Shown: piece after piece, positions 48,530-53,480 of the stretch
Position numbering within the stretch: the first letter of the stretch is position 1
Layout: every line of letters begins with the position of its first letter
Source: Thalassospira sp.
GTDB lineage: Bacteria > Pseudomonadota > Alphaproteobacteria > Rhodospirillales > Thalassospiraceae
NCBI RefSeq assembly: GCF_030690045.1
Contig: NZ_JAUYHK010000001.1
Span: 1 to 64,000, forward strand
Direction: 5' to 3'
Length of the DNA: 64,000 nucleotides
The notes under the pieces: model-generated
The model's database searches: none
What the model was told of the DNA's origin: nothing
What the model saw: the letters and a program-made list of their open reading frames with translations, nothing else
Made by a program: the position numbers and the translations under genes

Positions 48530-49336
48530 ATGCATGTCTTGCGTCGGATTGTGGAATCATCACAGTTCCAAAAATTTATCATCGCCGTCATTGCCCTGAA
48601 TGCCGTGATATTGGGCATGGAAACATCCCCAACCATCATGGATGTTGCGGGCCCGGTTCTGGTCGCGCTGGACCGGATTGCAGTGGCGATTTTTGTCATT
48701 GAACTGTTGATGAAACTTGCGGTTTACCGGTTGCGGTTTTTCACCAGCGCATGGAACGTCTTTGATTTTATCATTGTCGGCATAACCCTGATGCCGGTGG
48801 GCGAAGGATTGTCGGTGTTGCGCGCACTGCGCATCCTGCGTGCCTTGCGCCTGATTTCCGCCGTACCGTCGATGCGCAAGGTGGTCGAAGCCCTGATGCG
48901 CGCCATTCCCGGCATGGTATCGGTCCTGACCCTGTTGATGTTGGTGTTTTATGTCAGTGCGGTGATGGCGACCAAGCTGTTTGGCGCGACCTATACCGAC
49001 TGGTTTGGCTCTATCGGTGCATCGTTTTACTCGCTGTTCCAGATCATGACACTGGAAAGCTGGTCGATGGGGATCGTGCGCCCGGTGATGGAAACATACC
49101 CGCTGGCGTGGTTGTTCTTTGTGCCTTTCATTCTGGTGACGACATTTGCGGTACTGAACCTGTTTATCGCCATTGTGGTCGATGCCATGTCCACCCATGT
49201 CGATGTCGAGGAAGAAGAAACCCGCGAGGTCATCACGATTGACCATGCCGAGGTCATGCGGGAATTGCGCGCCCTGCGCGAAGAAGTTTCCCGTCTGGCG
49301 GATCATCGCGATGCCAATCGCCCCGATCTGCCCTGA
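48530..49336 (+). CDS. Voltage-gated sodium channel (NavBac)
   Basis: 268 residues, a single six-helix domain that would assemble as a tetramer. S1 begins about residue 12; S4 holds Arg every third residue (VLRALRILRALRLISAV, about 95-112); the pore has selectivity filter TLESWS (174-179), the same core as NaChBac and NavAb; S6 ends near LNLFIAIVVDAM, followed by a charged, coiled-coil C-terminus (EEEETREVI to REEVSRLAD). It should conduct Na+ in response to depolarisation; in alkaliphiles such channels support motility and pH homeostasis, but here the role is unknown. Confidence 0.95.
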   Translation: MHVLRRIVESSQFQKFIIAVIALNAVILGMETSPTIMDVAGPVLVALDRIAVAIFVIELLMKLAVYRLRFFTSAWNVFDFIIVGITLMPVGEGLSVLRALRILRALRLISAVPSMRKVVEALMRAIPGMVSVLTLLMLVFYVSAVMATKLFGATYTDWFGSIGASFYSLFQIMTLESWSMGIVRPVMETYPLAWLFFVPFILVTTFAVLNLFIAIVVDAMSTHVDVEEEETREVITIDHAEVMRELRALREEVSRLADHRDANRPDLP

Positions 49337-49439: not shown

Positions 49440-50225
49440 ATGAAGATCACTTTTGCCGGTACGGGGTCGGCATTTTGTATGGGTGCCGACAATTTCCAAA
49501 GCAACATGGTTCTGGAAGTGCCGGTGGCAAAAACCGGCAAAGCCAGGCCACAGCGGTTGCTGATTGATTGCGGATCGGATGCGCGTCATTCGTTGCGACG
49601 GATGGGGCTTGCGCCCAACGATCTGGATGCCATTTATATCAGCCATCTGCATTCGGATCATATTGGCGGTCTGGAATGGGTGGCGCTGTCGAATTATTTT
49701 CTGTGCGGCGGCCATCGCACCAGCCTTTATGCCATGCAGGAATTACTGGAACCATTATGGGAGCATAGCTTGCGCGGCGGCCTTGAAATCAGCGATCAGG
49801 GCAACAGCACCCTGGCCACCTATTTCGATGTTCATGCGCTTGCGGCCGACAGCGGTTTTGATTTCCACGGTGTCGCCATGACGATTGTGCCCTGCGAACA
49901 TGTTGTCACACCCCAGGGGGTCATGCTGTCTTATGGTCTGTTTGGCGATTGCGGGTCAAAACGGTTTTTCCTGACCACCGATGCCCGGTTTAGTCCCGAA
50001 ATCCATATGCCGTATTATCGCAAGGCCGACATCATTTTTCAGGATTGCGAACTGGGCCCGCGCCATTCCGGGGTCCATGCCCATTATGATCAGATTCGCA
50101 CCCTGCCCGACGATATCAAAAACAAAATGTGGCTTTACCATTATCAGGCCTATGATCAACCCGATGCAAAGGCCGATGGCTTTTGCGGGTTTGTTCAACC
50201 TCGACAAAGTTTTGATCTGACCTGA
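49440..50225 (+). CDS. MBL-fold metal-dependent hydrolase
   Basis: 261 residues. Metallo-beta-lactamase fold with the metal motif SHLHSDHIGG, an earlier Asp in LLIDCGSD, His in CEHVVTPQG, Asp in FFLTTDARF and a late His in HSGVHAHYDQ. The set is typical of small-molecule or nucleotide phosphodiesterases as well as RNase Z relatives; the substrate is unknown. GGAGATCGGGG precedes the ATG. It directly precedes the ABC/cyclic-nucleotide fusion gene (45 bp), so a common pathway is conceivable. Confidence 0.85.
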   Translation: MKITFAGTGSAFCMGADNFQSNMVLEVPVAKTGKARPQRLLIDCGSDARHSLRRMGLAPNDLDAIYISHLHSDHIGGLEWVALSNYFLCGGHRTSLYAMQELLEPLWEHSLRGGLEISDQGNSTLATYFDVHALAADSGFDFHGVAMTIVPCEHVVTPQGVMLSYGLFGDCGSKRFFLTTDARFSPEIHMPYYRKADIIFQDCELGPRHSGVHAHYDQIRTLPDDIKNKMWLYHYQAYDQPDAKADGFCGFVQPRQSFDLT

Positions 50226-50270: not shown

Positions 50271-53200
50271 ATGCCAAAGTCGGTCTTTGCCTATATCTGG
50301 CGATATAGCCGCCTCCAGCAGATTTTTCTGACAGCAATCACCTTGCTGTCTTTTCCGTTTTTGTATTATTCGCTGGACCTGCCGAAAATGATCGTCAACG
50401 AGGCGATTGGCGGGGCGGGCGAGCCATATCAGATTCTGGGCATCGATTTCAGCCAGATTGAATATCTGTTTGTGCTGTCGGGGATTTTCCTGGCCCTTGT
50501 GTTCGTCAATGGCGGCTTCAAATATTTCATCAATGTCTATACCGGCATCATGGCCGAACGGCTGTTGCGGCGTATTCGCTATATTCTGTTTGAACGCATG
50601 TTGCGGTTTCCGGTGCCGCATTTCCGCAAAACCAGTCAGGGCGAAATCGTTTCCATGATCACCGCCGAAGCCGAACCGCTGGGCGGTTTTTTCGGCGAGG
50701 CCTTTTCATTGCCGCTGTATCAGGGCGGGATGCTGATCACGATTTCCGCCTTTATTTTCATTCAGGACCCCTTGATGGGTCTGGCGGCTGTCGCGTTTTA
50801 TCCGCTGCAAGGTTATGTGATCCCGAAATTGCAACGCCGGGTCAACAAACTGGGCAAGGACCGCGTGCAGAATGTCCGGCGTCTGTCCGAACATATTGGC
50901 GACAGTGTCACCGGGGCAACCGATATCCGCGCCCATGAAACACAGGGTTTTGAATTATCGCATTTCACCCAGCGCCTGGGCCGGATTTTTGAAATCCGCA
51001 AGGAAATCTACCTTCGCAAATTTTTTATCAAATTCCTCAATAACTTCATCTCGCAAATCACGCCGTTCTTTTTCTATTCGATTGGCGGTTATCTGGTGAT
51101 CATGGGCGATCTGTCGTTTGGCGCCCTGGTCGCGGCCCTTGCCGCCTACAAGGATATGTCGGCACCGTGGAAAGAATTGCTGGCCTATTATCAACGGCTT
51201 GCCGATGCCATCATCAAATATGAACAGTTGCATGAACAGTTTGAATTGCCTGATCTGGCCCCCGAACACCAAATCATCACACCCCCGGCAGAACGTCTTG
51301 CCGGGCCACTGGATGTCAATGCCCTGTCATGGGTGGATGATGATGGCACCCGCGCGGTTGAAAATGTGTCCTTTAACATGCCGCTGCCCGGCAGTGCCTT
51401 GCTGACCGGCTCCTCAGACAGCGGCAAATCGCAACTGGCGCGGTTGCTGGTGCGTCTGCTGACCCCGACCACTGGCCGCATTCAGTTTGACAATACCAAT
51501 CTTGCCGCTCTGCCCGATGCCGCCATCGGGCAACGCATGTCCTATGTCGGGCCCGATGCCTATCTGTTTCGCGGATCGATTGCCGATAATCTGTTGTATG
51601 GTTTGAAACACCGCCCCTTGCCCGAACCGGTTGCCAATGAGGGTGAAAATCCGTCTGGCGAAATCAAGTTACTGGCACCGCCCCCGAAACTGGTCGATAG
51701 CATCACCCTGGCATCGCCCACCGATTTGCCGCCGAACATGACCGCCGTGTGGCTGGATGAAATCCACGAATCGGGCAATATCCCGCATGATCCCGCCGGG
51801 CAATGGCTGGATTATATCGGGCCGGGATATGAATCGCTTGACGCCCTGCATGCCGAATTGTTGCGGCTTCTGGCGGTGGTCCATCTGGATCGCGATGTTT
51901 ATCGCATCGGTCTGCAACGGCGTATCAATCCGGCGACAAGCCCCGATCTGGCCAAGGCCGTTCTGGTCGCCCGTCCGCGCCTGCGCGAGGTTCTGGCCGA
52001 ACGCGGCCTGTCGGATCTGGTCGAACCCTATGACATCAACCGTTATAACGACAACGCATCGGTTGCCATCAATCTGGTGTTCGGTGTGGCCACCAATCCG
52101 GATTTTCAACGGCTTGATTTTCTGACCGATCCCTATTTCCTGAAAGTTTTGCGCGAAAACGATCTGTATGAACTCCTGATCGAAATGGGCCGCAAAACGC
52201 TGGAACTGATGATCGATTTGTTTACCGGCCTGCCACCGGGCCACGACTTTTTCGACCGTTACAGTTTCGTCTCGGCCGATGAATTGCCCGATATCAAAAA
52301 TATGCTGAAACGCATCAGCGGCAAGAATGTCGATGATATCAGCGATCAGGACCGGACAAAATTGCTGGACGTCGCCATGACCCTGACCCCGGCGCGTCAC
52401 CGCCTGCGGGTGATTGATGACGAATTCCGCAATCTGATCCTTAAGGCACGATCCAAATTCCATCAGGATTTACCGCCGGAACTGGCCGACAGGATCGACT
52501 TTTTTCAGGCCGACACCTATACCGCCGCCGCCCCGGTGCTCGATAACCTGCTTTATGGCCGCTTTGCCTATGGCCGCGCCCATTCCGAGGAACGGGTGGG
52601 GGATGTTCTGTTTGAAATCGCCCGCGATGGCGGCCTGTACGAAGCCCTGGTTTCGCTTGGCCTTGAATCCGATGTCGGTGTCGCCGGAAGCCGCATTCCC
52701 CAAAGCCTGCGCCAGAAAATCGCGCTGGTGCGCGCCCTGATCAAGAACCCGGATGTTCTGGTCATTGACGAGGCCCTGTCGGCACTGGACCGCGAAACCC
52801 GCAATCAGGTCATCGCGTTCCTCACCCGGCAATCCGACACGCGCAGCATCATCTGGGTCGATGGTGACGAAATTGAAAATGACGGATTTTCAACCTTCCT
52901 GCATATGTCGAACGGCAAGATCGTCCGGCGCAAACAGGCCGGGGACGATCAGGGTGAAGAAACCGTCAATGGCACGACAACGGGCAATGGCAGCGACACA
53001 CCCGAAAGCCCGGTTGATGATGGTTCGATTGACGAGGAAGTCCGGCTGTTGCGGACCATCCCGCTCTTTTCCGGTCTTGATCCCAATGTCTTGAAACTTC
53101 TGGCCTTTACCAGCCCGCGCCTGACCTATAAACGCGGTGAAATCATTGTGCGGCAGGGGGAACCGGGCGATGCCGCCTTTGTCGTGATTTCGGGCAAGGG

Positions 53201-53480
53201 TGAAATCTGGCTGACCACCGAAGAAGCCAAAACCATCAAGCTGCGCGATGTTCTGGCCAAGGAAGTCATTGGCGAGATTGCCCTTCTGGTCGATGCACCG
53301 CGTTCCGCCACCATTCGCGCCACCGAGGATATGACCGTCCTGAAACTCGATAAAACCGAATTTCTGGGTCTGATCCGCGATGACCAGGCCGTATCCCTGC
53401 AATTGCTGCGGGTTCTGGCCGGGCGGCTGGACCAAACCACCAAACAGCTTGTCAACCGGAACCAGCCCCCCGAAAAATAG
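50271..53480 (+). CDS. ABC transporter with split nucleotide-binding domain and C-terminal cyclic-nucleotide-binding domain
   Basis: 1069 residues. Exporter-type transmembrane domain about 15-330; Walker A GSSDSGKS (380-387); Q-loop position YVGP (no Gln, 425-428); DNLLYG at 439-444. A segment of about 315 residues (445-757), rich in charged, helical sequence, is then inserted before a second DNLLYG (758-763). The signature reads QSLRQK (811-816) and Walker B is VIDEALSALD (from 831). Residues about 930-1060 form a cNMP domain with the phosphate cassette GEIALL (from 1001) followed by PRSATIRA. It may be a transporter gated by cAMP/cGMP; whether it still hydrolyses ATP is uncertain because Q-loop and signature are altered. 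Confidence 0.88.
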   Translation: MPKSVFAYIWRYSRLQQIFLTAITLLSFPFLYYSLDLPKMIVNEAIGGAGEPYQILGIDFSQIEYLFVLSGIFLALVFVNGGFKYFINVYTGIMAERLLRRIRYILFERMLRFPVPHFRKTSQGEIVSMITAEAEPLGGFFGEAFSLPLYQGGMLITISAFIFIQDPLMGLAAVAFYPLQGYVIPKLQRRVNKLGKDRVQNVRRLSEHIGDSVTGATDIRAHETQGFELSHFTQRLGRIFEIRKEIYLRKFFIKFLNNFISQITPFFFYSIGGYLVIMGDLSFGALVAALAAYKDMSAPWKELLAYYQRLADAIIKYEQLHEQFELPDLAPEHQIITPPAERLAGPLDVNALSWVDDDGTRAVENVSFNMPLPGSALLTGSSDSGKSQLARLLVRLLTPTTGRIQFDNTNLAALPDAAIGQRMSYVGPDAYLFRGSIADNLLYGLKHRPLPEPVANEGENPSGEIKLLAPPPKLVDSITLASPTDLPPNMTAVWLDEIHESGNIPHDPAGQWLDYIGPGYESLDALHAELLRLLAVVHLDRDVYRIGLQRRINPATSPDLAKAVLVARPRLREVLAERGLSDLVEPYDINRYNDNASVAINLVFGVATNPDFQRLDFLTDPYFLKVLRENDLYELLIEMGRKTLELMIDLFTGLPPGHDFFDRYSFVSADELPDIKNMLKRISGKNVDDISDQDRTKLLDVAMTLTPARHRLRVIDDEFRNLILKARSKFHQDLPPELADRIDFFQADTYTAAAPVLDNLLYGRFAYGRAHSEERVGDVLFEIARDGGLYEALVSLGLESDVGVAGSRIPQSLRQKIALVRALIKNPDVLVIDEALSALDRETRNQVIAFLTRQSDTRSIIWVDGDEIENDGFSTFLHMSNGKIVRRKQAGDDQGEETVNGTTTGNGSDTPESPVDDGSIDEEVRLLRTIPLFSGLDPNVLKLLAFTSPRLTYKRGEIIVRQGEPGDAAFVVISGKGEIWLTTEEAKTIKLRDVLAKEVIGEIALLVDAPRSATIRATEDMTVLKLDKTEFLGLIRDDQAVSLQLLRVLAGRLDQTTKQLVNRNQPPEK

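Follow-up and report, generated by a model that had tools for sequence, protein, structure and literature searches.

Several described systems share features with the protein analysed here, as far as the accessible portions of the respective reports go. HetC of Nostoc joins a cyclic nucleotide monophosphate (cNMP)-binding domain and a peptidase to an ATP-binding cassette (ABC) exporter, and its cNMP domain is essential for function (PMC10986499). Apyc1 enzymes cleave cNMPs, and a host role of Apyc1-type enzymes in cNMP signalling has been raised as a possibility (PMC9117128). MsbA2 of Sinorhizobium meliloti (SMb21191) is an ABC exporter with links to glycosyltransferases and to a polysaccharide of unknown identity (PMC3687685, PMC12239276). 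The gene in question lies in a window of 64,000 nucleotides (positions 1 to 64,000 of contig NZ_JAUYHK010000001.1, Thalassospira sp. assembly GCF_030690045.1). Its product combines an exporter-type membrane domain, a nucleotide-binding domain (NBD) interrupted by a long insert, and a C-terminal cNMP domain (Table 1). This ABC-cNMP architecture is real and widespread, and its NBD motifs are altered. We propose, with a probability of roughly one half, that it is a homodimeric ABC exporter of a glycan or glycoconjugate whose activity is set by a cyclic mononucleotide at the C-terminal domain.

The protein is encoded by a single open reading frame (ORF) of 1069 amino acids and follows the ABCB/MsbA-type layout, an ABC_membrane transmembrane domain followed by an NBD, with no C39 or other peptidase family found in Pfam at E up to 0.01. 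The Pfam ABC_tran match covers just the first part of the profile (2-79 of 137; residues 364-440), and the second NBD part resembles exporters in PDB sequence matches starting at about residue 778-797. When its profile is compared with four ordinary exporters that the genome also encodes, residues 345-446 correspond to columns 11-111 and residues 764-893 to columns 108-235. The two NBD halves thus adjoin in the ordinary columns with nothing lost, which places an insertion of about 318 residues just after the first DNLLYG motif; its boundary is ambiguous because this motif is duplicated. The C-terminal domain matches PF00027 and carries the phosphate-binding cassette with its Glu and Arg, and the top PDB matches to it are domains of cGMP- and cAMP-dependent protein kinases. 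The AlphaFold2 model of the whole protein has a mean pLDDT (predicted local distance difference test) of 85.8 and a predicted TM-score (pTM) of 0.76. Its top Foldseek matches are ABC exporters (E 2.9e-17); normalised by query length, the whole-chain TM-scores are low, at 0.22-0.35 among the rows listed. A split NBD followed by a terminal cNMP domain, as read in the first-pass annotation, is therefore borne out by the intact frame, the Pfam domains and the insert. The motifs quoted there also lie where it had placed them (DNLLYG at 439-444 and 758-763, YVGP at 425-428, the QSLRQK region, and GEIALL to PRSATIRA at 1001-1017).

Table 1. Features of the ABC-cNMP locus and the associated gene run; positions refer to the window unless a contig is named
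Feature	Position	Strand	Basis or remark
ABC-cNMP protein	50271..53480	+	one ORF, 1069 aa, Pfam domains
Exporter-type transmembrane domain, residues 1-330	50271..51260	+	Pfam ABC_membrane 66-290; long helices in AlphaFold2 model
NBD N-terminal half, residues 345-446	51303..51608	+	Pfam ABC_tran 364-440; HHalign against ordinary NBDs, probability 99.8
Walker A GSSDSGKS, residues 380-387	51408..51431	+	canonical K-S in window protein
Q-loop region YVGPD, residues 425-429	51543..51557	+	glutamine absent
First DNLLYG, residues 439-444	51585..51602	+	motif reading
Inserted segment, about residues 446-757	51606..52541	+	profile comparisons, AlphaFold2 models; boundary ambiguous
Second, diverged Q-loop/ENI copy, residues 591-605, RYNDNASVAINLVFG	52041..52085	+	HHalign insert half A against B, probability 98.4
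Third Q-loop/ENI copy, residues 749-763 including second DNLLYG 758-763, TYTAAAPVLDNLLYG	52515..52559	+	motif reading, HHalign
NBD C-terminal half, residues 764-893	52560..52949	+	HHalign against ordinary NBDs, probability 99.9
Altered signature IPQSLRQK, residues 809-816	52695..52718	+	motif alignment
Walker B LVIDE, residues 830-834	52758..52772	+	intact in window protein
Cyclic-nucleotide-binding domain, residues 951-1037	53121..53381	+	Pfam PF00027 cNMP_binding, E=2e-20
Cyclic-phosphate-binding cassette GEIALLVDAPRSATIRA, residues 1001-1017	53271..53321	+	cassette conservation alignment
MBL-fold hydrolase, Apyc1 cyclic-nucleotide phosphodiesterase family	49440..50225	+	PF23023, PDB 7u2s; 45 nt upstream of ABC start
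Small membrane protein, 81 aa	53507..53752	+	directly 3' of ABC gene; Thalassospira loci only
Eleven-gene run (L272)	contig C2 503000-522500, 114-12879	-	family matches; one permease by similarity only

Rather than a captured domain, the insert is most likely a self-grown helical extension in which copies of the Q-loop/ENI element of the NBD are combined with helices. Three stretches in the insert and the adjoining NBD look alike: SYVGPDAYLFRGSIADNLLYG, which lies in the NBD proper, LVEPYDINRYNDNASVAINLVFG and IDFFQADTYTAAAPVLDNLLYG. Both DNLLYG copies reported by the first-pass annotation are present, but a third, diverged copy within the insert (residues 591-605) had been overlooked. The two insert halves, A and B, match each other in HHalign with a probability of 98.4 over 48 columns. 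The start of the NBD (N) matches half A with 64.8 over 17 columns and half B with 73.3 over 32 columns, and these short matches make the link between insert and NBD weaker than the duplication between A and B. Among all 28 segment pairs, the next scores are 16.8 for A-C, 6.2 for B-C and 6.1 for T1-T3, the rest being at most 2.2, with pairs that involve membrane or cNMP segments at 6.1 or below. Against the four ordinary NBD sequences from this genome, B reaches 38.2 and A 11.1, while the membrane and cNMP segments stay at or below 0.8. Since the insert halves repeat each other and, more weakly, the Q-loop/ENI element of the NBD, these profile comparisons indicate that the insert probably arose by internal duplication. 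A foreign domain was considered and rejected, as Pfam and PDB sequence matches are at chance level only while the comparison of insert halves and NBD is positive. On this point the interpretation departs from that of the first-pass annotation. Modelled alone by AlphaFold2, the insert is confidently predicted to fold by itself (mean pLDDT 88.1, pTM 0.79), a check that the first-pass annotation had suggested. Foldseek found no match to this model in PDB at E<=0.001 and 55 at E<=10, the best at 1.4. Judged from predicted models and one search program, the fold may be new.

The insert is widespread in the class. Used alone as query, as had been suggested, it was found in 131 of 385 genomes (118 of the 315 of good quality). 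The insert alignment retrieved 31 of 398 genomes of a phylum sample, all from the own genus or the same class. Relatives include rhizobia and Azospirillum, and the closest named ones among the matches listed are Thalassospira, with 70-76% identity in the best segment. A pattern scan of genome contigs confirmed at least 578 of at least 591 stretches. Among the best 80 loci kept, six are metagenome-assembled genomes (MAGs) labelled Gammaproteobacteria or Granulosicoccus (labels as given). One Granulosicoccus MAG locus (L122) shows a fused ABC-cNMP gene, followed by a separate cNMP gene and downstream glycosyltransferase clusters. An artefact or frameshift at the insert ends was rejected, given this distribution and no listed match with internal stops. 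The first-pass annotation had named such errors, and orthologues with ordinary NBDs and no cNMP domain, as grounds for abandoning its proposal. Neither applies: the insert occurs free of stops in relatives from more than 100 genomes, and a cNMP domain accompanies it at most loci, usually in a separate next gene.

The latter was counted at 135 class-sample loci, which were retrieved with the insert-only query, exclude the window, contain some contig-end fragments and include five genomes with two loci each; the best 80 loci, whose ranking used the full query with its cNMP part, were left out of this tally. At 12 of the 135, one ORF encodes both the ABC protein and the cNMP domain, at 107 the next gene encodes the latter, and a profile search added four loci with an adjacent cNMP gene, giving 123 with a fused or neighbouring domain. 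Three loci end at the contig edge before any cNMP gene. Loci without an adjacent cNMP gene are L148, L176, L184, L244, L250, L252, L253, L254 and L256, of which L250, L253, L254 and L256 all come from family f89. In a tree of the membrane domain and first NBD half, one change separates fused and split forms; this FastTree tree is unrooted with long branches, and the fused group needs two changes if loci with no cNMP gene or at a contig edge are included. The pattern is consistent with a two-gene system of which the window fusion is the form found in one lineage, although the tree does not prove the direction. In S. meliloti 1021 (pSymB, L059 8001-11220), the relative is matched in two pieces with a main ORF of 762 amino acids and a following cNMP gene. 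This two-piece match and short ORF suggest a possibly broken gene in this strain.

Canonical Walker A, Walker B, Q-loop, H-loop and signature motifs provide the textbook reference for an ABC protein. The window protein keeps both Walker motifs intact, but the canonical residues of the signature, the Q-loop and the H-loop are missing: IPQSL stands in place of LSGGQ, YVGP lacks the glutamine, and IIWVDGD lacks the His. Motifs were further counted in 125 sequences, i.e., 124 of the 133 class-sample loci with a blastp-found insert (those having an ORF >800 aa) plus the window protein. Their signature has an LSxAQ-like consensus with eroded glycines, Gln occupies the Q-loop position in 25 and His the H-loop in 42. 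Among 124 cNMP domains, the cassette residues G1001 and R1011 are found in all, E1002 in 117 and A1013 in 118. Across the relatives, ATP motifs erode while the cyclic-phosphate pocket is kept. Vestigial ATP use therefore has to be weighed as a tentative, rather doubtful alternative, in which a cyclic-nucleotide-gated translocator, flippase, channel or membrane scaffold for glycosyltransferases is built on an ABC frame, and cNMP binding, not ATP hydrolysis, drives the change. This alternative draws on the combined erosion of the Walker A Ser/Thr, the Walker B Asp, the signature glycines, the Q-loop Gln and the H-loop His beside the invariant cyclic-phosphate Arg, and on five divergent members (L048-L052) without the Walker A Lys (Arg in four, Ala in one, by alignment) or the motif glycines. 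Yet the window protein retains GSSDSGKS and LVIDE, and Lys or Arg is present at the Walker A position in 118 of the 125 sequences, so that ATP binding may persist. Moreover, type I exporters with a degenerate site already form a known class, according to the accessible part of one report (PMC7756269). An extended version, which we hold to be distinctly unlikely, states that the cyclic nucleotide replaced ATP as the switching ligand: the ATP site would decay, the tripled Q-loop/ENI element would act as relay and the cNMP subunit, fused in one lineage, would gate glycan export. Loci L048-L052 (G331, G022, G154) in addition form a divergent group of fused proteins, with as many as three copies in one genome, a possible paralogous specialisation.

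The proposal of a glycan substrate draws on the gene neighbourhood. Outside Thalassospira, common neighbours are glycosyltransferases (GTs; two with Glyco_tran_28_C and two of GT group 1) and a histidine phosphatase. Some of these loci also have a dipeptide/oligosaccharide-type ABC importer, the binding protein of which is related to solved structures with the annotations oligopeptide-binding and alpha-galactoside-binding. A 253-residue operon protein is polysaccharide deacetylase-like by eye, and matched no family or PDB chain. Neighbour clusters were derived from our own ORF choice and Louvain grouping and some contain wrong-strand frames (cluster 7 overlaps the glycosyltransferase genes on the opposite strand); linkage is therefore taken from the count of GT28 or GT4 genes, which occur within the fetched stretch at 92 of the 135 loci. 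At L069, L072, L078, L083 and L109, a fused ABC-cNMP gene stands in line with the glycosyltransferase operon. Across the 385 genomes, 131 have the insert-bearing ABC protein, 129 a GT28-type protein (E<=1e-20) and 126 both. A Fisher test, which left out three weaker GT matches (G210, G071 and G070), gave p 1.6e-89 with 124 shared and 7 and 2 alone. The genes are unlinked in Thalassospira: the window genome carries the operon on another contig, C2, as one run on one strand unlinked to the ABC gene, and the pairing of ABC protein and glycosyltransferases thus holds when unlinked. This run comprises a GT28 gene, two of GT group 1, a histidine phosphatase, a second GT28, the deacetylase-like 253-residue protein, a 205-residue protein, a double-NBD ATPase, SBP_bac_5 and two permeases.

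In Thalassospira, the immediate neighbourhood of the ABC gene differs. The protein encoded directly upstream, a metallo-beta-lactamase (MBL)-fold hydrolase, matches PF23023 (E=5.7e-30; 105 bits, cut-off 50 bits), and its closest solved structure is the Apyc1 entry PDB 7u2s (E=2e-30, residues 3-260). The HxHxDH motif is present in 8/8 Thalassospira sequences including the window. Among the best 80 loci, the MBL gene directly precedes the ABC gene in 7/7 other Thalassospira loci (gap 0-94 nt, ORFs as called) and the small membrane protein, for which no family was matched in searches that included Pfam and PADLOC, directly follows it in the same 7/7. Two further Thalassospira genomes with the insert (G705, G708) fall outside these locus counts. 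The three-gene order pointed out by the first-pass annotation is therefore seen in this genus, whereas it recurs at 1/135 class-sample loci, itself Thalassospira, and the partner in the wider family is the glycosyltransferase operon. Among loci read, an Apyc1-type phosphodiesterase is directly upstream in Thalassospira only, and in the class the PF23023-type family is limited to 3/385 genomes at E<=1e-12, of which two are Thalassospira. Independent support for a cyclic-nucleotide ligand comes from this gene of a cyclic-nucleotide phosphodiesterase family ahead of the exporter in one lineage. No dedicated cyclase gene lies beside the ABC-cNMP gene, all ten class III cyclase matches of the window genome being off the window contig C23. 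That the genome has such matches speaks in favour of the proposed exporter. Between accA and the MBL gene, the window further contains an Ion_trans gene of the voltage-gated channel type (48530-49336), which is upstream in 4/7 other Thalassospira loci.

A phosphodiesterase of this family could also serve as the off-switch of a Pycsar-like anti-phage effector, a membrane protein opened by a cyclic nucleotide made upon infection. PADLOC models for PycTIR, PycC and three TIR effectors indeed match the protein, but these five matches all fall within residues 939-1066, the shared cNMP domain, and the other two (mad3, mad8) fall in the NBD halves. Considering also that the cyclase matches are on other contigs and that, in contrast to the patchy spread of a defence island, the ABC gene accompanies a biosynthetic operon in many families of the class, we judge this explanation very improbable.

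In the proposed exporter, each chain would contribute one membrane domain and one NBD to a homodimer, which would move a glycan or glycoconjugate made by the conserved glycosyltransferase operon across the inner membrane. A cyclic mononucleotide bound by the C-terminal domain would set its activity, this domain being a small separate subunit from the next gene in most relatives and fused in the window lineage. The helical extension of about 318 residues probably arose in the NBD as its Q-loop/ENI element was duplicated repeatedly. The region beside the insertion site contacts the membrane domain in ordinary exporters. The extension could link the cyclic-nucleotide domain to the NBD as a relay, such that cNMP binding would, via the insert, permit or block NBD movement. 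In Thalassospira, the adjoining Apyc1-family phosphodiesterase would remove the signal. The computations establish the architecture, the duplication within the insert, the coupling between ABC and cNMP genes, the conserved cyclic-phosphate pocket, the erosion of the ATP motifs and the co-occurrence with the glycosyltransferase, whereas we infer the homodimer, the export direction, the glycan substrate, which cyclic nucleotide is bound, the role of the insert as relay and the use of ATP.

Several observations weigh against this proposal. Directly after the Walker A Lys position, 97 of the 125 sequences have D or E, and just 19 retain the Walker B Asp; with ATP motifs degenerate in most relatives, it is uncertain that the protein is an ATP-driven pump. 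At 43 of the 135 loci, including all 12 fused ones there, the fetched stretch holds no GT gene, and nine of the 135 lack a neighbouring cNMP gene though the contig continues. With all matches kept, five genomes have the ABC protein and no GT28 match and three show the reverse, and the Fisher p-value overstates the association since genomes share ancestry. Besides, co-occurrence cannot separate an exporter from a regulator. Finally, the ligand could be another nucleotide, given that the HetC cNMP domain binds ppGpp (guanosine tetraphosphate; Kd 59 uM) and is protected by GDP and GTP, cAMP not being protective, as stated in the accessible part of the report (PMC10986499). On this precedent, an ordinary ATP-driven exporter whose cNMP-type domain binds another effector such as ppGpp, or binds nothing and acts as an assembly module, can be conceived. 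We consider this unlikely, as the phosphate-binding cassette with its invariant Arg is retained and a cyclic-nucleotide phosphodiesterase-family gene is directly upstream in Thalassospira.

If the proposal of a cyclic-nucleotide-controlled glycan exporter is correct, cyclic nucleotides control export directly, without a transcription factor, across much of the Alphaproteobacteria including rhizobia and Azospirillum. Split and fused forms, an eroded ATP site and a tripled coupling element together would provide a natural test of how an NBD is re-purposed, and the linked glycosyltransferase operon gives a concrete starting place for the substrate.

In the open-access literature, with subscription papers mostly outside the scope of the search, no description of the insert or of a split ABC/cNMP pair was recognised, in agreement with the suggestion of an undescribed class. 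MsbA2 shares with the ABC-cNMP family the link between an ABC exporter and glycosyltransferases. It was considered as the S. meliloti orthologue and rejected: its operon starts at about 938 kb of pSymB and the ABC-cNMP relative lies at 842-845 kb, and these different positions imply different genes. SMb20813, called an msbA homologue in the accessible part of one report (PMC10945364), may be this relative. MsbA/ABCB-type exporters (type IV fold) are alike by sequence in the membrane domain and both NBD halves, but are without the post-ENI insertion of about 318 residues, the altered Q-loop and signature, and the cNMP domain or neighbour gene seen here. Apyc1 and the MBL gene product share PF23023, the 7u2s match and HxHxDH, whereas the MBL gene adjoins the ABC-cNMP gene at every Thalassospira locus read. 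HetC is likewise an ABC exporter with a cNMP domain. It differs by its N-terminal position of this domain and by a C39 peptidase, and the accessible part of its report mentions no such NBD insertion (PMC10986499); in the ABC-cNMP family, the cNMP domain is C-terminal or encoded by a separate gene.

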